64,000 nucleotides of DNA from Candidatus Aminicenantota bacterium (GTDB taxonomy: Bacteria > Acidobacteriota > Aminicenantia > Aminicenantales > UBA4085), in the NCBI GenBank assembly GCA_003141555.1, contig PLMN01000005.1:1-64000 (forward strand), written 5' to 3'. Of this stretch, positions 35,818 through 60,072 are shown in pieces (the stretch's first letter is position 1; each line of letters starts with the position of its first letter). The notes beneath the pieces are model-generated. The model ran no database searches. It had not been told where the DNA came from and was given only the letters and a program-made list of their open reading frames with translations. Made by a program: the position numbers and the translations under genes.

Positions 35818-35846
35818 TTGACACCCGGCGGGCGGAGGTCTAGAAT
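35818..35846 (+). promoter_or_regulatory. Near-consensus promoter with a 225-base leader to the next gene
   Basis: TTGACA (35818-35823), an exact 17-bp spacer and TAGAAT (35841-35846). The next gene starts at 36079. The 35777-36078 gap otherwise holds two tiny ORFs on this strand with ribosome-site-like sequence before them: MNTGNL at 35882-35902, and a 14-codon ORF (MIPMIRKPNGLPGV) at 36020-36064. I see no riboswitch I can name. Confidence 0.5.
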
Positions 35847-36078
35847 CCAAATTTCTTTCATTCTCCGATGAGAGCGAGGCCATGAACACCGGCAATCTCT
35901 GAGCGGCACGCAAAGGATCGGGTCGATCCTTCAACCGGGTCCGCCGGCCGCTCGTCTAGAGATCCCCTCTCCTGACCGGGCGCCGGCCCGCCCGGAACAT
36001 ATCGACGAGGAGAGGATAAATGATCCCGATGATAAGGAAGCCCAACGGACTTCCGGGCGTCTGATCGCCAGGCCATCC

Positions 36079-38169
36079 ATGACTGAGCTCACGCTGGGAC
36101 TCGACCTGGGAAGCCGCGCCGTGAAGGCCGCGCTGTTCGATCCGGGGCGCAGGCGCGTCGCCGCCGCCGTCGTCCGCGACGGGACCCCCGACAAGGCCGC
36201 CGACGCGGACGCCCTCCTCCGCGATATCCTGGCCACGGCGGAGTGCGCGCAGAGCGACATCCGGCGGATCGTCGCCACGGGCTACGGCCGCGGGCAGGCC
36301 GCCTTCGCCGACGAAGTGACGACCGAGATCTCCTGCCACGCCGCCGGGATCGCGGCCCTCCATCCCGAGGTCCGGACGGTGATCGATATCGGCGGGCAGG
36401 ACAGCAAGGCCATCGTCCTGGCCGACGGGGGGCGCGTCCGCGACTTCGCCATGAACGATCGTTGCGCGGCCGGGAGCGGCCGCTTCCTCGAGGTGGCGGC
36501 CCGCATTCTGGGGACGGACGTCGAGGGGCTGTCGGGGCTGGCCGAAGGCGCGGCCGCCGAGTCCGAAGTCAGTTCGATGTGCGTCGTCTTCGCCGAATCC
36601 GAGGTCATCGGCATGCTGGCTCGCGGGTTCCGGCGGGGAGACATCGCCGCGGGGATCATCCGCTCGATCGCCCGCCGCGTGGCCGGGCTCGCGGAGCGCA
36701 TCGGAGTCCGGCCGCCCGTCGCCTTTACGGGCGGGGTGGCGCTCAACCGGGCCATGGTTGCGGCCCTGGGGCGCGAGCTCCGCGAGCGGCTCGTCATCCC
36801 GGCCGATCCCCGCCTTACGGGGGCGCTCGGCGCGGCGCTCCTGGCCGCCCGCAAGATCGGCCTGCCCGCGGGGCTGTCGGATCCGGAAATCGCCGCCGTC
36901 ATCGGCGCCCCCCCATGCTCGGGCGCGGGACCGACGGCCGTCTCCCAGGACGCCGCATCCTCATGCTGCGGCGAGTCCGCGCCGGCGGCCTGCCGTACGG
37001 AAGATGGTTCGTGCGGCGGCGAGAGCGAATCCGAGCCCCGGAGCGCGTATCTCCATCGCGTCCGGGCGCTCGACCGGTTCGACCGGATGTTCGGCAACGC
37101 CCTCGAATACGCCCGCGCGGCGAAAGCCGCGGGCCGGAAGATCGTCTCGATGTTCTGCGAGTTCACGCCGCGGGAGCTCGTCCTGGCCGCAGGCGCGGTG
37201 CCCGTCAGCGCCTGCGGCGGAAGCTACGAGACCGCGCTGGCCGCGGAGCGGGACCTGCCCGCGGGCCTCTGCCCCCTCATCAAGTCGAGCTACGGCTTCG
37301 CCCTGGAGAAGGCCAGCCCCTTCTTCGAGCTGAGCGACCTCGTGGTCGCGGAGACGACGTGCGACGGCAAGAAGAAGATGTTCGAGCTCCTGGGAGGCTT
37401 CAAGCCGATGGCCGTCCTTGAGCTCCCCCAGAAGCCCGACGACGAATCGGGATTCCGCCACTGGCTGTCCGAGCTCGCCGGCCTGCGGCGGCGGCTCGAG
37501 GACCTGACGGGCGCCGAGATCACGGACGAGCGCCTGCGGGAGGCCATCCGGCTGATGAATCGCGAACGGGCGCTGCGCCGGAAGATCGCGCGGTTAGCCG
37601 GCCGGGGCCTGACCGGCCGCGAAGTCCTGGCGGCGAAGAACGTGATCTCGGGCATCCCCGAGGACCTGAAGGCCTACGAGGACATCCTCGCGGAGGCCGC
37701 CGCCGCGGAGCCCGACCTGCCGACGCGGCCGCGCATCCTGATGACCGGTGTGCCCATGCCCTACGGCGCGGAGAAGGTCATCGACATCATCGAGGAAGCC
37801 GGGGCTACGGTCGTGGCCCAGGAGAACTGCACGGGGCTCAAGCCTCTGACCGAGGATGTCTCCGAGGAGGGGGACCCGCTCGAAGCGATCGCCCGCAAGT
37901 ATTTCCACCTCCCCTGTTCCTGCATGACCCCCAACACGGGCCGCCTGAACCTCGTCGACGACCTGATCCGGGAGTTCAAGCCGGACGGAATCGTGGACCT
38001 CGTCTGGCAGTCCTGCCTGACCTACGACGTCGAGTCCGAGGTCCTCAAGCGCCACCTCGAACGCCGGCACGGACTGCCGGCCCTGAAGATCGTAACGGAT
38101 TATTCGCCGTCCGACGTCCCGCAGCTGCGGCTGCGGGTGGAGGCGTTCCTCTCGATGCTCGACCGCTGA
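36079..38169 (+). CDS. Fused BadF/HgdC-type ATPase activator and HgdB/YjiM-type iron-sulfur reductase (double-cubane-cluster-like)
   Basis: Protein of 696 residues. Residues 1-260 are an ASKHA-fold ATP-dependent electron activator (GLDLGSRAVKAALFD, VIDIGGQDSKAI). The two cysteines that ligate the dimer [4Fe-4S] cluster are present: Cys129 (NDRCAAGSG) and Cys168 (SSMCVVF). A Cys-rich linker (about 290-312, SSCCGESAPAAC) follows. Residues 320-696 are a dehydratase/reductase subunit with Cys360, 379, 398, 428, 584, 613, 615 and 646. The motif HLPCSCMTPN and the single-subunit form resemble the double-cubane cluster protein (YjiM) group more than heterodimeric 2-hydroxyacyl-CoA dehydratases. In known cases activator and reductase are usually separate genes. 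The reaction is unknown; it is probably ATP-driven, low-potential and anaerobic. Confidence 0.8.
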   Translation: MTELTLGLDLGSRAVKAALFDPGRRRVAAAVVRDGTPDKAADADALLRDILATAECAQSDIRRIVATGYGRGQAAFADEVTTEISCHAAGIAALHPEVRTVIDIGGQDSKAIVLADGGRVRDFAMNDRCAAGSGRFLEVAARILGTDVEGLSGLAEGAAAESEVSSMCVVFAESEVIGMLARGFRRGDIAAGIIRSIARRVAGLAERIGVRPPVAFTGGVALNRAMVAALGRELRERLVIPADPRLTGALGAALLAARKIGLPAGLSDPEIAAVIGAPPCSGAGPTAVSQDAASSCCGESAPAACRTEDGSCGGESESEPRSAYLHRVRALDRFDRMFGNALEYARAAKAAGRKIVSMFCEFTPRELVLAAGAVPVSACGGSYETALAAERDLPAGLCPLIKSSYGFALEKASPFFELSDLVVAETTCDGKKKMFELLGGFKPMAVLELPQKPDDESGFRHWLSELAGLRRRLEDLTGAEITDERLREAIRLMNRERALRRKIARLAGRGLTGREVLAAKNVISGIPEDLKAYEDILAEAAAAEPDLPTRPRILMTGVPMPYGAEKVIDIIEEAGATVVAQENCTGLKPLTEDVSEEGDPLEAIARKYFHLPCSCMTPNTGRLNLVDDLIREFKPDGIVDLVWQSCLTYDVESEVLKRHLERRHGLPALKIVTDYSPSDVPQLRLRVEAFLSMLDR

Positions 38170-44814: not shown

Positions 44815-45494
44815 CGGTCTTTAAATAAATATGCCGAATGAACGTCGCTCATTTCCCAAAGGCTCTCGAAAAGGGGTTAAAGAACAAACTTCCTATGCCG
44901 ACTAGGCCGGCCAAAGAGGTCGCAAGTAAAATTCCTAAAAGAAGGACCCTTTCGGAATCGAATTGTTCGGCCCAAACTTTTCTCGCCTCATCCAGCGCTA
45001 TTTTAAAGGACGCTTCGACGTTGTTCGATAGTGATTTCAGCATATAGAGGAGCGTCAAATCGTTCTGTTCGACGATTTTGTTGACGACGGGATAATTTTT
45101 GCCGTCCCGCATCACCACGGAATAGGATTCGTCCCCGTGATAGTTTGAGGAAAACTTTTGCCGGATATCCGCGCGGGCGACTTCGACTACCTCTAGGCCG
45201 CGCGTCATAACTCCGGTTCCCTGAATCGTGTCGCTTATGAACTTAGCCGGATGCTGTCCGGAGAATTCGATGACCTCGCCCGAGGTTTTTTCTACCTTCC
45301 GGATTTCATGATTGGCCGGTATAGCGGCGGCCAGCACCTCGGGCTTAATCTCCTGGACGGAATAGCACGACCAACAGAAAACGAGAAAACTCTCTAAGAT
45401 CAAGCTAGCGATGATTCGATTTCTCATGGCTTGCTTGCCTTCACTTTCATTATCCAAAATTCCCTGGTCGAAGTTGTCAAGAATATGTCAAGGA
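44815..45494. repeat. Segmental duplication, copy A
   Basis: About 670 bases, from ACCGGTCTTTAAATAAATATG at the left to TTGTCAAGAATATGTCAAG at the right, are repeated in the same orientation at 47213-47880. The unit holds one gene plus its flanks. Divergence is visible by eye (scattered substitutions, and a 15-18-base difference near the gene's 3' end), so the duplication is not very recent. Confidence 0.75.
44849..45427 (-). CDS. Duplicated small membrane-anchored protein, copy A
   Basis: Protein of 192 residues beginning MRNRIIASLILESFLVFCWS. The N-terminus looks like a signal peptide or anchor with two cysteines (Cys18 and Cys21); the lipobox is poor. The middle part (VEVARADIRQKFSSNYHGDESYSVVMRDGKNYPV) is beta-rich. 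A C-terminal helix (LLLGILLATSLAGLVGIGSLFF) spans the membrane. Family unknown. An upstream in-frame ATG at 45457 is less likely, because the ribosome-site position is conserved before MRN(R/K) in the paralogue. Confidence 0.65.
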   Translation of the reverse strand: MRNRIIASLILESFLVFCWSCYSVQEIKPEVLAAAIPANHEIRKVEKTSGEVIEFSGQHPAKFISDTIQGTGVMTRGLEVVEVARADIRQKFSSNYHGDESYSVVMRDGKNYPVVNKIVEQNDLTLLYMLKSLSNNVEASFKIALDEARKVWAEQFDSERVLLLGILLATSLAGLVGIGSLFFNPFSRAFGK

Positions 45495-47241: not shown

Positions 47242-47880
47242 ACGTCGCTCAGTTCCCAAAGGCTAACGAACTTCCTATGCCGACCAGGCCGGCCAAAGAG
47301 GTCGCGAGTAAAATTCCCAACAAAAGGACACTTTCGATATCGAATTGTTTGGCCCAGACTTTTTTCGCCTCATCCAGCGCGACCTTATAGGACGCCGCGA
47401 CGTTGTTCGATAGTGACTTCAGCATACAGAGAAGCGTCGAATCATTCTGGTCGACGATGTAGTTGACGACGGGATAGGTTTTGCCGTCCCGCATCACCAC
47501 GGAATAGGATTTGTCTCCGTGATAGGTCGAGGAGGTCTTTTGTCGGATGTCCACCCGGGCGACTTCGATAACCTCCAGGCTGCGCGTCATGACTCCGGTT
47601 CCTTGAATCGTGTCGTTCATGAACTTAGCCGGATGCTGTCCGGAGAATTCGATGACCTCGCCCGAAGTTGTTTCGACCTTCCGGATTTCATAGTCGCCCG
47701 GCTTACCGGCAGCCAGCACCTCGGGCTTAATCTCCTGGACGGAATAGCAGGACCAACTGAAGATTAGAAAACTCTCTAAGGTCACAATGTCAATGATTTT
47801 GTTTCTCATGGTTTGCTCCCCTTCACCTCCATTATCCAAAATTCCCCCCTCGAAGTTGTCAAGAATATGTCAAGAATAAG
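47213..47880. repeat. Segmental duplication, copy B
   Basis: Second copy of the unit described at 44815-45494, same orientation, about 2.4 kb away. It starts at ACCGGTCTTTAAATAAATATG and ends at TTGTCAAGAATATGTCAAGAA. The DNA between the two copies carries the broken MTTDAF genes and the NTF2-like gene. Confidence 0.75.
47249..47809 (-). CDS. Duplicated small membrane-anchored protein, copy B
   Basis: Protein of 186 residues, clearly paralogous to copy A along its whole length: YSVQEIKPEVLAA, GTGVMTRSLEV, YPVVNYIVDQNDSTLL. It starts MRNKIIDIVTLESFLIFSW and ends ATSLAGLVGIGSSLAFGN, lacking the six-residue FFNPFS insert of copy A. GGGGAG precedes the ATG with 7-base spacing, which supports this start. 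Both copies keep an open frame, so both may be expressed. Confidence 0.65.
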   Translation of the reverse strand: MRNKIIDIVTLESFLIFSWSCYSVQEIKPEVLAAGKPGDYEIRKVETTSGEVIEFSGQHPAKFMNDTIQGTGVMTRSLEVIEVARVDIRQKTSSTYHGDKSYSVVMRDGKTYPVVNYIVDQNDSTLLCMLKSLSNNVAASYKVALDEAKKVWAKQFDIESVLLLGILLATSLAGLVGIGSSLAFGN

Positions 47881-48291: not shown

Positions 48292-48388
48292 TGGCGGGAG
48301 GATGTGGGAATCGAACCCACCCGGCCCCTTCGTCAGAAGCCATACCGGATTTGAAGTCCGGAGGGGCCACCAGACCCCATGCCCTCCC
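48292..48388 (-). tRNA. selC: tRNA-Sec (anticodon TCA)
   Basis: 97 bases including encoded CCA. On the minus strand it starts GGGAGGGCATGGGGTC. Features specific for tRNA-Sec are present: a six-pair D stem (GGGGTC/GGCCCC), anticodon loop CTTCAAA with TCA reading UGA, a long variable arm (GGCTTC/GAAG core), and T arm GTGGG-TTCGATT-CCCAC. The acceptor stem has seven pairs plus a C-A mismatch at the eighth position. It is charged with serine, converted by SelA, and delivered by SelB. Confidence 0.93.
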
Positions 48389-48597
48389 GAAACGGATATT
48401 ATATCAAAATTCCAAGACCGATAATATCATTCCCTATCTCCGCCGCGCCCGGTTGGAACCTGCTTGGCTCCTTAATTTTTCAATCTTGGAATCAATCCCC
48501 TGACTAAACACTTAGGGTTCTCATGTCTGCAAAAAGGGGGGACATTTCCTCGGCTGAGCAATAGATTTCCGCGCGTGCGGGCAAAAGGAGGTTCTCG

Positions 48598-51865: not shown

Positions 51866-53779
51866 CTACTTGGCCACGTGCTTGTCGCCGAGTCTCCTCG
51901 TCACGCCCGTTCGGTCGAAGTACTCAAGCAGGGCGCAAGCGTATTTGCGCGAAACCTGGAGCCTCTCTTTGAGCTCGGCGATCGTGACCTCGCGCCTCTT
52001 CCGCAGCTGGTCGAGCGTCGCCTCGCGCGCCTTTTCCAGGAAGTCCCGATGATAGACGATCTTGGGATCGAGCCGGACGAGGCGGCCCAGCTCCAGCAGT
52101 CCGTGCATCACGCTCTTGAACACGCGCTCGTGCAGGCCCAGCTTCCGGCAGACGTCGTCCTCGGACGGCGTCTCGAAGCGGGCCCGCTTGAACTCGGCCT
52201 CGACCCGGAGGGCAAGCTCGAGGTCCTTGGTCGAGACCGTGGCTTCGCGGCCCGGCAGGCCGATCGCGTTCTCCCGCCGCTCGAGCGACGCCTTCTCGAT
52301 CAGCCCGTCCAGCGTCCACTTGAACAAGGCTTCGTCCGCCCCCTGGACGAACTGCGTCCGGAGGTCGGCCAAGGGCATCGCGGCGCTGGCCGGGTTGGCT
52401 TTGAAGAAGCGCCGGACGAGGTCGAGCATCCGCTCGCTCTGCCGCTCCGCGTCCTCGCGGAGGACGACGTCGCCTTTCTCCGTCGGCAGGGCGACGATCG
52501 TCCCCGCGGCGAGGAGCTCGGCGAAGGCGGCCTTTACGTCCTCGGCCCGCTTCCCGAATTCGCGGGCGGCGTCACGCGGCGCCAGCGGCCGCGGCGCCCG
52601 CTTCCGGAGGGCCTGCTCGACAATCGACGCGAGCGGGCCTTCCCATCGCTTCACTCCCTCGATCGCCTTCGGGTCGAAGCGCTTGTGCCGCGGCGGAGAA
52701 ACGTCGAGGATCTCGCCGCCGCCGATCGTCATGACCGGCGAAAAGGTGCGGATGATGAACCGGTCGCCGTGCAGGGCGGCCGTCGGCGACTCCAGCACGA
52801 ACTGGGCGAGGACGGACTCCCCCGGTTGGGCCTTCTCCTTTTCGAGGAGGATGACCCGGGCGATGACCTCGTCCGTGCCGGTGTGGAGCCGGACCCGGTC
52901 GCGCGTCTTGAGCTCCTTCGGATCGTCCGCCAGCAGCCGCAGCCGGGCGTCGATCCGCGTCGCGGGCGTGAGGAAGCCCGGCGCGGCCGCGACCTGGCCG
53001 CGGCGGAGGGCGTCCTTGTCGACGTCCTGGAGATTCAGGGCCGTCCGCCGCCCGATCTCCGAACGGTCGCGCTTCTCCTTGTGGACCTGGACGCCCCGGA
53101 CCTTGACCTCGAGCCTCTCCGGAAGAATCTCGATCCGGTCGCCGGCCCTGACCCCGCCCGAGAGGATCGTCCCGGCGATGACCGTCCCGAAGCCGTGCAT
53201 GACGAAGACGCGGTCGACGGGCATCCGGAAGATCCCGCAGTCCGGGCGCCGTTCGACGCGCCGCCCGACGTCCCTCAACGCCGCGGTCAGGGCGTCGAGG
53301 CCGGCCCGCGTCACGGACGAGACCGGGATGACCGGGGCCGATTCCAGGAATGAGCCGGCGACGAAACTCCGGACCTCCGCCTCGAGCTCGAGGAGGCGCA
53401 TCTCGTCCACGAGGTCGGACTTCGTCAGGGCGACGATCCCGCGATTCACGCCGAGGAGACGCAGGATGTCGAAATGCTCCCGCGTCTGGACCGAGATGCC
53501 CTCGTCGGCGGCGATGATGAAGACCGCCGCGTCGACATGGCTCGCCCCCGCGACCATCGTCTTGACGAACTTCTCGTGGCCCGGGACGTCGATGAAGACG
53601 ATCTGCTTCTCATAGTCGGGAATGTCGAGGAAGACGAAGCCCAGCTCGATCGTCATCCCCCGCTCTTTTTCCTCGGGCAGGGCGTCGGGATCGATGCCGG
53701 TCAGGGCCTTGACGAGCGAGCTCTTGCCGTGGTCGATATGGCCCGCCGTGCCGACGATGACATGCTCTTTTTCGGCCAT
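51866..53779 (-). CDS. selB: Selenocysteine-specific elongation factor SelB
   Basis: Protein of 637 residues. G1 is [13 protein letters not shown], then G3 DVPGHEKF and G4 TKSD. EF-Tu-like beta domains follow, and the C-terminal winged-helix repeats (about 380-637) bind the SECIS hairpin. It carries Sec-tRNA-Sec to UGA codons. Its ATG shares one base with the selD stop (TAATG), so translation is coupled. It is the last gene of the selA-selD-selB operon. Confidence 0.96.
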
Positions 53780-55092
53780 TACCTGACCTTCTTCTTGGGC
53801 GGAGGAGATTCCTTGCTTCGCTCGGAATGACGCTTACGGTTGTTGCGAGGAGTGGCGCTCTTGCGCCGCGACGAAGCAGTCCCTTCTTTATCCTGATGCG
53901 GGCTTTTCGCTAAGACGATCTTTCCCTCGGATTTTCGCGTGATCCGGCCGATGATCGCCGCCTTAACCGCGCCCTTGGCCCGGAGCCTGGCCAAAACGCG
54001 CGCCGCCTTGGCCTCCGGGACGCACATCAGCAGGCCGCCCGACGTCTGCGGGTCGTAGAGCAGGTCCTCGAATTCCTGGCCGACGTCGTCCGCCCGCTCG
54101 ACCCGCCGCGCAGCCGCCTCGCGGTTGCGCTCCGCCGCGCCCGAGATGACGCCGTCCCGGAGCAGCCCCAGGACGCCCGGGAAAACGGGCAGCGCATTCG
54201 CCCAGATCTCGGCCATGACGCCGCTCTGGACGGAGATCTCGCCCAAGTGGCCGGCAAGGCCGAAGCCCGTCACGTCCGTGGCGCACCGGACGCCGGCCGC
54301 GGTCATGACCTCGGCGGCGCCGCGGTTGAGCGCGGCCATCGACCGGCCGGCGGCGCGGATCCAGGCCGGCCTGGCCTTCCCGATCTGAGCGGCGAAGCAG
54401 ATCGCCCCCGTGCCCAGAGGCTTGGTCAGGATGAGGGAATCGCCCGGCCGGGCCGCGGCGTTGGTGACGATCTTCTTCGGGTGGACGACGCCCGTCACGG
54501 CGAAGCCGAATTTGATCTCCTTGTCCTTGAGGCTGTGGCCGCCGACGACGACCGTCCCAGCCTCCCGGAGCGCGTCGATCCCGCCCTGGAGCATGCGGTT
54601 CATGACCCGGGGGCTGAGCTTCTCGATGGGGAAGGCGACGATCGAAAGCGCGGTGAGCGGCCGGCCGCCCATGGCATAGACGTCGCTCACGGAGTTGGCC
54701 GCGGCGATCCGGCCGAAGAGATAGGCATCGTCGACGCACGGGGTGAAGACATCCACGGTCTGGACGAGGGCCAGCGCGGGGCCGAGCTTGTAGACACCGG
54801 CGTCATCGCACGTCTCGGCGCTGACCAGGACCCGCCGGTCGAAGACCCGCGGTAATCCGGCGAGGGCCTTCCGGAGGTCCTCCCGGCCGATCTTGGAGGC
54901 GCATCCCGCGTTTTCAACGAACTGCGTCAGGGGAGCGTCCTCGGCCGCGTCGTCCTCGCGCTCGCCCGAGCATAGGCAGACGTTCTTCCGCTTGAAGAGG
55001 TCGCAGGGGCAGGGCTCCTTGGGATTGCAGATGCAGCGGCCGAGCTTGATCGATCGGCCCATCACCCGGGCCCGCTTTTCGAAATCGATCAT
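53779..55092 (-). CDS. selD: Selenide, water dikinase (selenophosphate synthetase)
   Basis: Protein of 437 residues; usual SelD length is about 345. The catalytic pair is Cys64 and Lys67 in NAGCASKIG (the E. coli Cys17/Lys20 equivalent; the second cysteine of GCGCK is serine here). [10 protein letters not shown] and [20 protein letters not shown] follow the family. Two additions stand out. The N-terminal 55 residues carry three CxC motifs (Cys20/22, 28/30, 39/41). The C-terminal 45 residues are basic and derive partly from a dispersed repeat (RHSERSKES). It overlaps selA by 4 bases and selB by 1. Confidence 0.94.
53796..53883. repeat. Dispersed repeat (HSERSKES type) inside the 3' end of selD
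   Basis: The minus-strand sequence contains CGTCATTCCGAGCGAAGC followed by AAGGAATCTCC, preceded by GACTGCTTCGTCGCGGC. This signature, read as RHSERSKES, is a common intergenic repeat in diverse bacterial genomes. Here it is translated as the last 30 or so residues of SelD. The inverted partner arm typical of complete elements is partly degraded. Confidence 0.55.
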
Positions 55093-56498
55093 GGCCGCAG
55101 CGCCTTTCGGATCGCACCGGCGACGGCCGCGTCCTCGACGGGCCGGATGGTCCGGAAATCGAACAGCACGGCGTCCTTGTGGATGCGGGCATAGACCGGC
55201 GGTCGGCCGAGGCGCAGGGCGCGGGCCAGGTCATCGGGTCCCACGCCAGCCGGCGCGACCGAGAGACAGATCGTGGGGATCGTCTCGACCGGGACCGATC
55301 CGCTCCCGACCTGGGATCCGCTCTCGACGACATCGAACTGCGCCTTGTCCGAGAGGTCTTTGGCCAGCCCCTTCCCGACGCGGCCCGCCCGTCGGCGGAG
55401 TCCTCCCAGATCGAGCGAAAGCATGCGGTAAAGGGGATGGACCTCGACGAGCTTGTCCGGGGTCAGGAAGAGTTTGAGCGTGGCTTCCAGGGCGGCGATC
55501 GTCAGCTTGCCGCAGCGGAAGGCGCGGGCCAGGGGGTCCTTCTTGATGCGGGCGACGTGCTCCGCTTTGCCCGCGATGAGGCCGGACTGCGGGCCGCCGA
55601 TGAGCTTGTCTCCGCTGAAGCAGACGACGTCGGCCCCGGCCGCGACGCTCCGGGCGACCATCGGCTCCGGTTCGAGCCCGAAGGCCCGGAGGTCGACGAG
55701 CGCCCCGCTTCCCAGGTCGTCGATGACGGGCAGGCCGCGCTTCCGGCCGAGCTCGACGAGCTCCTCGATCCCCGGCTCGGCGGTGAAGCCCACGATCCGG
55801 TAGTTGCTGTGGTGGACGCGGAGGATCGCTCCCGTGGCCTCGCCGATCGCGGCCTCGTAATCGCGGAGATGGGTCTTGTTGGTCGTCCCGACCTCGCGCA
55901 GGACGGCGCCGCTCATGCTCATGACGTCGGGCATCCGGAACGAGCCGCCGATCTCGACGAGCTGCCCGCGCGAGACGATGACCTCCTTGCCCTTGGCCAG
56001 GGCGTGGAGGATGAGCACGGTCGCGGCCGCGTTGTTGTTGACCAGGGTCGCGGCCTCGGCGCCCGTCAGCTCGGCCAGCAGCCGGCCGACGCGCGCGTCG
56101 CGCTGCCCGCGCCGGCCGGTCTCGGGATCGAGGGCCAGGGTGCAATAGCCCTGGGCCGCGTCGTCGAGCGCCCGGCGGGCGGCTTCGGAAAGCACGGCCC
56201 GGCCCAGCCCGGAGTGCATGAGGATCCCCGTAGCGTTGATCGCCCGCTCGAGCGAGGCGCCATACGTCGCTTCGAGGCGGGCCTCGATCCGGCCAAGGAT
56301 GCGGTCCGGGGCCGGCGCCTCTTCGCCGGGGGTCGCGGTAGCGTCGTCCTCGCGGGCGGCCGCCCGCAGGGCGTCGAGCGCGGCCCGGCATTCCTTGAGA
56401 AAAGCCTCGCGGCCGAAGCGCCCGACGAGCGAGCGGCCGGAGGCGTCCTCGAGAAGCGATTCGACCGAGGGAAGCTTGCGGAGCAGGGTATCGTTCAT
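55089..56498 (-). CDS. selA: L-seryl-tRNA(Sec) selenium transferase
   Basis: Protein of 469 residues, the usual SelA length. The N-terminal tRNA-binding domain starts LLRKLPSVESLLED; the PLP lysine is Lys298 in SGDKLIGGPQSGLI; NNNAAATVLIL and GSGALVDL match the SelA core. It converts Ser-tRNA-Sec to Sec-tRNA-Sec using selenophosphate from SelD. It is the first gene of the operon; its stop overlaps the selD start (ATGA). Confidence 0.96.
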   Translation of the reverse strand: MNDTLLRKLPSVESLLEDASGRSLVGRFGREAFLKECRAALDALRAAAREDDATATPGEEAPAPDRILGRIEARLEATYGASLERAINATGILMHSGLGRAVLSEAARRALDDAAQGYCTLALDPETGRRGQRDARVGRLLAELTGAEAATLVNNNAAATVLILHALAKGKEVIVSRGQLVEIGGSFRMPDVMSMSGAVLREVGTTNKTHLRDYEAAIGEATGAILRVHHSNYRIVGFTAEPGIEELVELGRKRGLPVIDDLGSGALVDLRAFGLEPEPMVARSVAAGADVVCFSGDKLIGGPQSGLIAGKAEHVARIKKDPLARAFRCGKLTIAALEATLKLFLTPDKLVEVHPLYRMLSLDLGGLRRRAGRVGKGLAKDLSDKAQFDVVESGSQVGSGSVPVETIPTICLSVAPAGVGPDDLARALRLGRPPVYARIHKDAVLFDFRTIRPVEDAAVAGAIRKALRP

Positions 56499-58806: not shown

Positions 58807-60072
58807 ATGTTCGACAACGCCAAGATCCGCCATCAGTTCCCCGCCCTGCACGGCGGGGCGGTTTTCCTCGACAACCCGGGCGGGACCCAGGCCGTCAAGA
58901 ACTGCATGGACCGGATGATCGAATACCTCATCGAGTCCAACGCCAACCACGAGGGCGCGTTCAAGACCAGCCGGGACTCCGATGAGATGATCGACAAGGC
59001 GCGCGCGTCCGCGGCCGATTTCCTGAACGCCGCCCGACCCGAGGAAATCTCCTTCGGCCAGAACATGACCAGCCTGACCTTCCATATCAGCCGGTCCCTG
59101 GGACGCCGCTTCGCCCCCGGCGACGAGATCATCGTCACCCGCCTCGACCACGACGCCAACATCGCCCCCTGGCTCCTCATGGCCGAGGATCGGGGCTGCA
59201 TCATCCGCTGGGTGGACTTCCATCCCGAGGACGGCACCCTGGATCTCGACGGCTTCCGGGCCGCCCTCGCCGGAAAGCCGAAGCTCGTGGCCGTCGGCTA
59301 CGCCTCGAACGCCCTGGGCACGATCAACCCCGTGGCCGAGATCGTCAAGCTCGCCCACGCGGCCGGGGCGCTGGTCTTCGTCGACGCCGTCCACTACGCG
59401 CCCCACGGCCCGATCGACGTCCAGGCGCTGGGTTGCGACTTCCTGGCCTGCTCGGCCTACAAGTTCTTCGGCCCCCACCTTGGGCTCCTCTACGGCCGGG
59501 CCGACCTCCTTGACGGTCTGTTCGCCTACAAGGTCCGGCCCTCGTCCGACCGACTGCCGGGCAAATTCGAGACCGGCACCCAGAACCACGAGGCAATCGC
59601 GGGGCTCGCCGGGACGTTCGACTACCTCGACTGGGTCGGCCAGCACTTCGCCGCTTCCCATGCGGCCGCCTATGACAAGGCGTTCCAGGGCCGCGCCCTC
59701 CACCTGAAGCAGGCCATGGCCGTCATCCGGAGCTACGAGTCCGACCTCGCTTTGGCGCTTTTCAACGCGATCCGCGATGTCCCGGGGACGACAATCTACG
59801 GCCTCACCGACGAGAAGCGGTTCGCCGAGCGCGTCCCGACCTTCGCCTTCCGGGTGAAGGGCTTCACACCCCGCCAGGTCGCCGAAAAGCTCGACGCCGA
59901 GGGCATCTACGTCTGGGACGGCAATTACTACGCTCTCGAAGTGACCCTGCGGTTGGGCGTGGAAAACTCGGGCGGGATGGTTAGGACCGGGGCGGTGCAT
60001 TATAATACCAGAGAAGAGATCGAGAAGTTCGGGAAAGCGCTTCACAAGTTGACCGCAGAGGAGTCATCATGA
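58807..60072 (+). CDS. Cysteine desulfurase-like class V aminotransferase
   Basis: PLP enzyme of 421 residues. FLDNPGGTQAVKNCMDRM begins the fold; DHDANIAPW, VDAVHYAPHGPIDVQALG and the PLP lysine segment CSAYKFFGPHLGLLYG are as in the cysteine desulfurase-like (TIGR01976) group. The usual mobile-loop catalytic cysteine of NifS/IscS is not apparent near residue 330, so desulfurase activity is doubtful. AAGGAGAG precedes the ATG. The stop overlaps the SDR start by 4 bases. The selenocysteine genes nearby make a selenocysteine lyase role worth considering, but nothing in the sequence supports it directly. Confidence 0.78.
   Translation: MFDNAKIRHQFPALHGGAVFLDNPGGTQAVKNCMDRMIEYLIESNANHEGAFKTSRDSDEMIDKARASAADFLNAARPEEISFGQNMTSLTFHISRSLGRRFAPGDEIIVTRLDHDANIAPWLLMAEDRGCIIRWVDFHPEDGTLDLDGFRAALAGKPKLVAVGYASNALGTINPVAEIVKLAHAAGALVFVDAVHYAPHGPIDVQALGCDFLACSAYKFFGPHLGLLYGRADLLDGLFAYKVRPSSDRLPGKFETGTQNHEAIAGLAGTFDYLDWVGQHFAASHAAAYDKAFQGRALHLKQAMAVIRSYESDLALALFNAIRDVPGTTIYGLTDEKRFAERVPTFAFRVKGFTPRQVAEKLDAEGIYVWDGNYYALEVTLRLGVENSGGMVRTGAVHYNTREEIEKFGKALHKLTAEESS

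Follow-up and report, generated by a model that had tools for sequence, protein, structure and literature searches.

Double-cubane cluster proteins (DCCPs) are regarded as the archetype of the benzoyl-CoA reductase/hydroxyacyl-CoA dehydratase family, and their biological function was stated in 2025 to be unknown (PMC11971306). A preprint on mlp gene clusters has provisionally linked DCCP to selenium (Se) metabolism and drawn DCCP/DCCPR among selenium genes (PMC10418091). Lin et al. (2015) also named HGD-D subunits and an activase among the STRING partners of selenium genes in Slackia, with no discussion in the part of that paper concerned (PMC5322559).

The locus described here lies in a stretch of 64,000 nucleotides from a Candidatus Aminicenantota genome (contig PLMN01000005.1), hereafter the window, in which an ATPase and a DCCP are encoded in a single chain. 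Both halves are homologous over their full length to the DCCP:DCCP-R system of Carboxydothermus hydrogenoformans (PDB 6eno, 7yyl, 7yzm, 7yzq), with 35% identity, a Z score of 50 and an rmsd of about 1.9 Å between the reductase half and DCCP, 38-40% identity to DCCP-R, and the same cluster Cys and ATPase family. However, the C. hydrogenoformans system consists of two separate proteins, whereas the fusion is one ATPase-reductase chain with a disordered Cys-rich linker, and it belongs to a different DCCP subfamily, which is linked to selenium genes and carries a Cys-rich tail. The HgdC/HadI activators (1hux, 4eht) resemble the N-terminal half in fold and in the two cluster Cys (41-43% identity, Z about 36), but they stand alone and activate CoA-ester dehydratases, of which the genome of the fusion has none. 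The [8Fe-9S] cluster ligands of BzdN of class I benzoyl-CoA reductase (8s02, 26% identity) map onto Cys residues of the fusion; however, BzdN requires the catalytic subunit BzdO and a CoA ester, and partner and pathway are absent from this genome by PF06050 count. Unfused DCCP-activase pairs of the same subfamily, with the same two activities, occur beside selD, selA and selB in four selenium loci (L064, L089, L093, and L099), but as separate genes and with DCCP preceding the activase, the reverse of the order in the fusion. Two-activase fusion proteins of relatives (G036 and G026, about 1,400 aa) also join an activase to further domains, but they are twice as long, have two activase regions, and are absent from the genome studied here. 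No fused double-cubane dehydratase was found in the searchable literature.

Domain identity and cluster ligands of the fusion protein

The fusion gene is a single uninterrupted ORF with ATG at 36079, TGA at 38169 and no internal stop (Table 1). Its product shares 78% amino acid identity with that of a genome of the same genus (G001), and dN/dS was 0.13 in the ATPase domain and 0.21 in the reductase domain versus 0.53 in the linker region, so the ORF is not due to chance. In hmmscan searches, the N-terminal domain matched TIGR00241 (CoA_E_activ) with 242.5 bits over residues 4-255 (cut-off 125.4 bits) and PF01869 with 194 bits; together with the ATPase motifs and the two cluster Cys, this places it among the acyl-CoA dehydratase activases. 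The C-terminal domain matched the double_cubane equivalog NF040772 essentially in full length (profile 12-372 of 372) with 408 bits, above the curated equivalog cut-off of 350 bits, as well as PF06050 (340 bits), which assigns it to the DCCP class. The BzdN, BcrC, and HadC equivalogs scored only 18.7 to 91.7 bits, far under their cut-offs of 421 to 700.

Table 1. Features of the fusion locus and of the selenium island in the window
Feature	Position	Strand	Basis or remark
Predicted sigma-70-type promoter, TTGACA-17-TAGAAT	35818..35846	+	11/12 consensus and homology
Perfect inverted repeat AAGGATCG-GGT-CGATCCTT, presumed 5' UTR	35913..35931	+	Kept in G001; outer bases changed in G251
14-codon ORF after GAGGAGAG, decayed 5' end of an ancestral SAM methyltransferase gene	36020..36064	+	Nucleotide alignment of window, G001 and G251
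Fusion gene: activase (DCCP reductase), Cys-rich linker and DCCP	36079..38169	+	696 aa; ORF and domain calls
BadF/HgdC-type ATPase domain, residues 4-256	36088..36846	+	TIGR00241, PF01869, model versus HgdC 1hux
C129 / C168	36463-36465 / 36580-36582	+	Expected ligands of dimer-shared [4Fe-4S] cluster
Disordered Cys-rich linker, residues 276-322, five Cys	36904..37044	+	pLDDT under 50; Cys comparison; dN/dS
Double-cubane-cluster protein domain, residues 345-694	37111..38160	+	NF040772 and conserved Cys
tRNA-Sec	48292..48389	-	ARAGORN, anticodon tca
selB	51866..53779	-	TIGR00475, 351.5 bits
selD, with Cys-rich N-terminal extension ([27 protein letters not shown]; ...CLC)	53779..55092	-	TIGR00476, 360.3 bits
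selA	55089..56498	-	TIGR00474, 536.3 bits

Among four fusions and 19 separate activases, the activase motifs D9, G11, GGQD105-108, C129, and C168 were invariant or nearly so, and the two activator Cys (Cys129 and Cys168), already recognized in the first-pass annotation, were strictly invariant. The C-terminal half contains the eight Cys (360, 379, 398, 428, 584, 613, 615, and 646) and the HLPCSCMTPN motif that had been noticed there; all of these Cys except C615 were invariant in the four fusions and 21 DCCPs. The ligands of the [8Fe-9S] cluster in BzdN (C36/73/100/263/293/327; PMC11971306) map to C360, C398, C428, C584, the C613-C615 region, and C646, so that a complete double-cubane ligand set is present. 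The HMMER column for BzdN C293 corresponds to C615 rather than C613, but C613 is the better ligand candidate because C615 is replaced by Val in many DCCPs. By analogy with the characterized proteins, the fusion would carry both an [8Fe-9S] double cubane and a [4Fe-4S] cluster.

An AlphaFold model, built from 44 window and locus sequences, had a mean pLDDT of 88 with both domains well folded, whereas residues 276-322 fell under 50. Comparison of the C-terminal half by Foldseek and VIA ranked DCCP first (Z 50), followed by BzdN (Z 43) and HadC (Z 41), and the N-terminal half was most similar to HgdC/HadI-type activators (HgdC 1hux, Z 36.5). The sequence comparison gave the same order for the C-terminal half, with E values of about 1e-67 for DCCP (7yyl/6eno), 4e-28 for HadC, and 3e-27 for BzdN. 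Neither a closer relationship to the dehydratases nor a loss of cluster-ligating Cys, which the first-pass annotation had named as findings that would speak against its assignment, was observed: by both E and Z the C-terminal half is nearer to DCCP than to benzoyl-CoA reductase or 2-hydroxyacyl-CoA dehydratase subunits, and no ligand was lost in the alignment and comparison with DCCPs. Its description of a DCCP-type reductase fused to its own activator thus agrees with profile scores, ligands, sequence, and structure.

The absence of a second dehydratase subunit, originally noted for the neighborhood of the gene, holds across the entire assembly (97% complete), in which one PF06050 match and one PF01869 match were found, both within the fusion protein. 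Since the genome has no other member of either family, the activase and reductase halves of the fusion must serve each other, and the DCCP has its cognate HgdC/BadF-type ATPase in the same chain. Activation of other dehydratases by the activase half was ruled out, because the PF06050 search of the assembly revealed none. The fusion is not a selenoprotein, as it lacks an in-frame UGA or other stop. Selenocysteine (Sec) was also considered for DCCP relatives and rejected: stops inside their alignments were out-of-frame noise or belonged to broken copies, and no TGA aligned to a ligand Cys was detected among the intact relatives scanned.

The Cys-rich linker

The Cys-rich linker SSCCGESAPAAC between the two halves, as described in the first-pass annotation, is present; its suggestion that the linker holds a further cluster found no support as a fixed site. 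A fixed extra Fe-S cluster was rejected because only one of the five Cys positions, C280, is conserved across the four fusions and the region is predicted to be disordered. The linker is also the fastest-evolving of the three regions compared by dN/dS. Unfused DCCPs of the same subfamily have N-terminal tails such as MSDSCCGGG...SCCCGSGG or MGKCCGN..., and at least two Cys were present in 46 of 54 tails of this subfamily versus 0 of 57 in other DCCPs. The linker is most likely this Cys-rich tail, enclosed when the two domains were fused. These data support its being a flexible thiol-rich arm, and such a floppy tail may have a metal- or selenium-binding role.

Origin of the fusion and its ancestral operon

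The fusion was found in the window genome, in G001, in a genome from another family of the same phylum (G251, 71% identity), and in a Caldisericia MAG (L052, 55% identity over the best segment). Every remaining locus seen had activase and DCCP as separate genes, and among 299 sampled Bacillota genomes no frame of fusion length was detected around NF040772 matches (the longest was 505 aa). As the fusions cluster together in the tree with 99% SH-aLRT support, the simplest reading of the sequences would be a single fusion event followed by transfer. Simple loss of a stop codon from the common DCCP-activase gene order was ruled out, because the activase comes first in the fusion. Activase-first neighbors do exist (G142, L053, L054, L126, and L131), and they fall outside the subfamily in the tree. 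A 652-codon frame at 313-2268 of L012 (G015) has an HGD-D-like N-terminal half and an activase C-terminal half, the reverse domain order, and is possibly an independent fusion within the same superfamily.

An operon MT-HA-HB-fusion, ending with the fusion gene, is present in G251 and L052, where MT is a SAM methyltransferase and HA (about 340 aa) and HB (about 470 aa) are divergent HGD-D proteins; below, DCC denotes DCCP and ACT denotes activase. The DNA upstream, including promoter, inverted repeat, and ribosome-binding site, can be aligned across the window, G001, and G251, and TTGACA with a -10-like box is also present at the homologous site in G001 and G251. In G001 a leader ORF directly upstream of the fusion encodes MKPTGMKLEDVQGVYSG, and the N-terminus of MT in G251 is MRQSGIKLEDVQGVYSG. 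This shared leader with its remnant of the MT N-terminus implies that an ancestor of the window's genus lost MT, HA, and HB by deletion, which put the fusion behind the old operon promoter and first codons. Because lone fusions are still under purifying selection, ATPase and DCCP form a sufficient unit, to which MT, HA, and HB are accessory. Neither this ancestral operon, of which the fusion gene is the survivor, nor the selenocysteine island of the window had been pointed out in the first-pass annotation.

The ribosome-binding site is strong at the 14-codon ORF and weak at the fusion start, which suggests that translation of the two may be coupled. The inverted repeat GGATCG-NNN-CGATCC occupies the same leader position in three genomes (window 35913-35931; L133 7973-7991; L132 13944-13962) and may act as an operator or form an RNA hairpin; neither the repeat nor the leader matched an Rfam family. 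A riboswitch in the 225-nt leader was also considered and found unsupported, given the lack of an Rfam match and folding z-scores of -2.3 (window) and -0.5 (G001). In G001, genes located 2 kb downstream from the fusion (L133 12273-14931) appear by eye to encode the [2Fe-2S] and large subunits of a molybdenum hydroxylase; the fusion neighborhood in the window does not contain them.

Selenium utilization genes in the window and across genomes

A complete island of selA, selB, selD, and tRNA-Sec is located 10-18 kb from the fusion in the window. Fusion and sel genes belong to separate operons, at distances of about 10 kb to tRNA-Sec and 13.7 kb to selB, and no sel gene was found on the 27-kb contig of G001 that bears its fusion. 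The Cys-rich extension of SelD is also present in many genomes with DCCP operons (L062, L071, L074, L075, L081-L083, L092, L098, and L099); G013, in which DCCP was not detected, has it as well. A cysteine-desulfurase-like protein of the TIGR01976 family (58807-60072, + strand; 458.8 bits), a possible selenium or sulfur donor, is encoded about 2.3 kb from selA. Two similar short ORFs of 202 and 196 aa (WSCYSVQEIKPEVLAA...) at 44849-45457 and 47249-47839 (- strand) appear to be local duplicates of a gene for a membrane protein or lipoprotein.

Operons of the form MT-DCC-HA-HB-ACT-SelD, with selA and selB adjacent, were found in Planctomycetota, Verrucomicrobiota, Hydrogenedentota, Nitrospirota, and others (the five-gene operon with selD in L061, L062, L066, L071, L074, L075, L081-L083, L091, L092, L098, and others). 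Three dehydratase-family proteins share a single activase in these operons, and HA of L061 and L078 has lost several cluster Cys of the L052 HA. Four minimal loci, those with the unfused pairs mentioned above, consist of SelD-DCC-ACT-SelA-SelB and nothing else. When only loci of 10 kb or more were counted, 20 of 36 from the fusion's DCCP subfamily (56 rows) also contained a sel gene (selD, selA, or selB), versus 2 of 19 from other DCCPs.

Co-occurrence across genomes pointed in the same direction. Among 14 control genomes, DCCP was detected only in E. coli and M. jannaschii, which were also the only two with SelD over the cut-off. All 13 DCCP genomes in the sample of the fusion's own phylum had SelD, compared with 259 of 396 overall (p 0.004, phylogeny-uncorrected). 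In Bacillota, selD was found in 86 of 89 DCCP-containing genomes versus 112 of 210 genomes without DCCP (Fisher p 1e-15, shared ancestry uncorrected); two of the three exceptions have selA, a gene present in 76 of the 78 DCCP-containing Bacillota examined for it. SelD also occurred in 42 of 48 further genomes reached via DCCP loci, the other six being MAGs. As a control, carriers of HadB-type dehydratases in the same Bacillota sample were SelD-positive in 21 of 25 cases, and SelD accompanied DCCP without HadB (74/76) more often than HadB without DCCP (9/12; p 0.02, phylogeny-uncorrected). Because HadB carriers are SelD-rich, though less so than DCCP carriers, anaerobic lifestyle explains part but not all of the DCCP-SelD link. 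SelD is common without DCCP, and therefore DCCP is not essential for selenium use. Overall, both co-occurrence with and proximity to selA, selB, and selD were observed for DCCP, uncorrected for phylogeny.

Many MAGs of Planctomycetota and related groups carry the five-gene methyltransferase-DCCP-HGD-D-HGD-D-activase operon with selD, and no description of it was found in the literature searched. A DCCP-selenium link had been noted before. Judged by the searchable literature, what is apparently added here is the quantification of that link, the MT-DCC-HA-HB-ACT-SelD operon, the Cys-tail subfamily, and the fused form.

Proposed function and alternative explanations

It is tentatively proposed, with slightly less than even confidence, that the fusion is a self-contained, one-chain DCCP/DCCP-reductase system of selenium metabolism, which reduces a selenium compound and supplies selenide to SelD. 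Taken alone, ATP-driven electron transfer by the fusion is very probable by analogy with the characterized homologs; a role in selenium metabolism is suggested by genomic association, and a selenium substrate with delivery to SelD is what genomic context makes most likely. Two chains would pair via their ATPase domains and share a single [4Fe-4S] cluster, to which each contributes C129 and C168. ATP binding and hydrolysis would drive low-potential electrons one at a time into the reductase half's [8Fe-9S] double cubane, either within one chain or between the two chains of the dimer (by homology to 7yyl and 7yzm). The disordered linker might allow docking of both halves without a separate protein. 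The double cubane would then reduce a small substrate, putatively an oxidized or alkylated selenium compound, and selenide or enzyme-bound Se(-II) would become available to SelD. Selenite and Se(0) can be reduced by thiols with no ATP-driven, low-potential enzyme involved, and the need for such an enzyme is therefore clearer for C-Se cleavage than for selenite; reductive C-Se cleavage by a double cubane is chemically attractive.

A sharper form of this selenium-reductase explanation is an organoselenium/organosulfur dealkylase, whose double cubane cleaves C-Se (or C-S) bonds and recycles methylated selenium, comparable to the nitrogenase-like MarHDK for thioethers, with MT and the two extra HGD-D proteins handling the methylated partner. 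The SAM methyltransferase as conserved first gene of the operon, the occurrence of DCCP genes in mlp clusters, for which a role in recycling methyl-selenide has been proposed (PMC10418091), and the family relative TudS, which takes sulfur off a thionucleotide (PMC11971306), are consistent with such an enzyme. However, the window's genus has dispensed with MT, HA, and HB while purifying selection continued to act on the fusion, which argues that the core reaction is independent of them, and the substrate is putative; this specific form is rather unlikely. Unlikely too, but somewhat less so, is a general small-molecule or detoxification reductase acting independently of selenium on azide, hydrazine, acetylene, or another unsaturated or N-N substrate. 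Its linkage to selenium would then reflect anaerobic lifestyle and shared islands. Acetylene, hydrazine, and azide are reported substrates of DCCP, their physiological relevance being given as unknown (PMC11971306), and the SelD-richness of HadB carriers in the same sample, as well as the position of the window gene outside the sel operon with its own predicted promoter, would fit this explanation. It does not account for DCCP-ACT inside selD-selA-selB loci or for why, in an anaerobic phylum, nearly all DCCP genomes are Sec-bearing, and the excess of SelD with DCCP over that with HadB also stands against it.

Membership in the same PF06050 superfamily could suggest an enzyme of the 2-hydroxyacyl-CoA dehydratase or benzoyl-CoA reductase type with an acyl-CoA as substrate, but sequence and structure are nearer to DCCP, the double-cubane ligand set is full, and both of those enzymes are heterodimers whereas this genome has a single PF06050 protein and hence no partner subunit, so that such an activity is very improbable. 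The most improbable explanation is that the fusion is a functionless relic decaying after the loss of methyltransferase, HA, and HB: three operon partners were deleted and the ribosome-binding site just before the fusion start is weak, yet the domains evolve more slowly than the linker, the frame is intact in both species of the genus, and all ligands are kept, with neither frameshifts nor lost ligands in the two species available.

The fusion offers a simple target for expression and assay, as one chain combines a DCCP with its own ATPase, is the only one of the genome, and is encoded close to a full Sec island. The finding that DCCP is almost confined to Sec-bearing genomes, together with the SelD-DCC-ACT-SelA-SelB loci, ties an orphan protein family to a testable physiology. 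A more far-reaching and quite doubtful form would be a dedicated ATP-driven selenium reductase that reduces or dealkylates a selenium compound, captures the selenide by its Cys-rich linker, and hands it to the Cys-extended SelD. If this were true, DCCPs as a whole would represent an overlooked selenide-supply branch of Sec biology.
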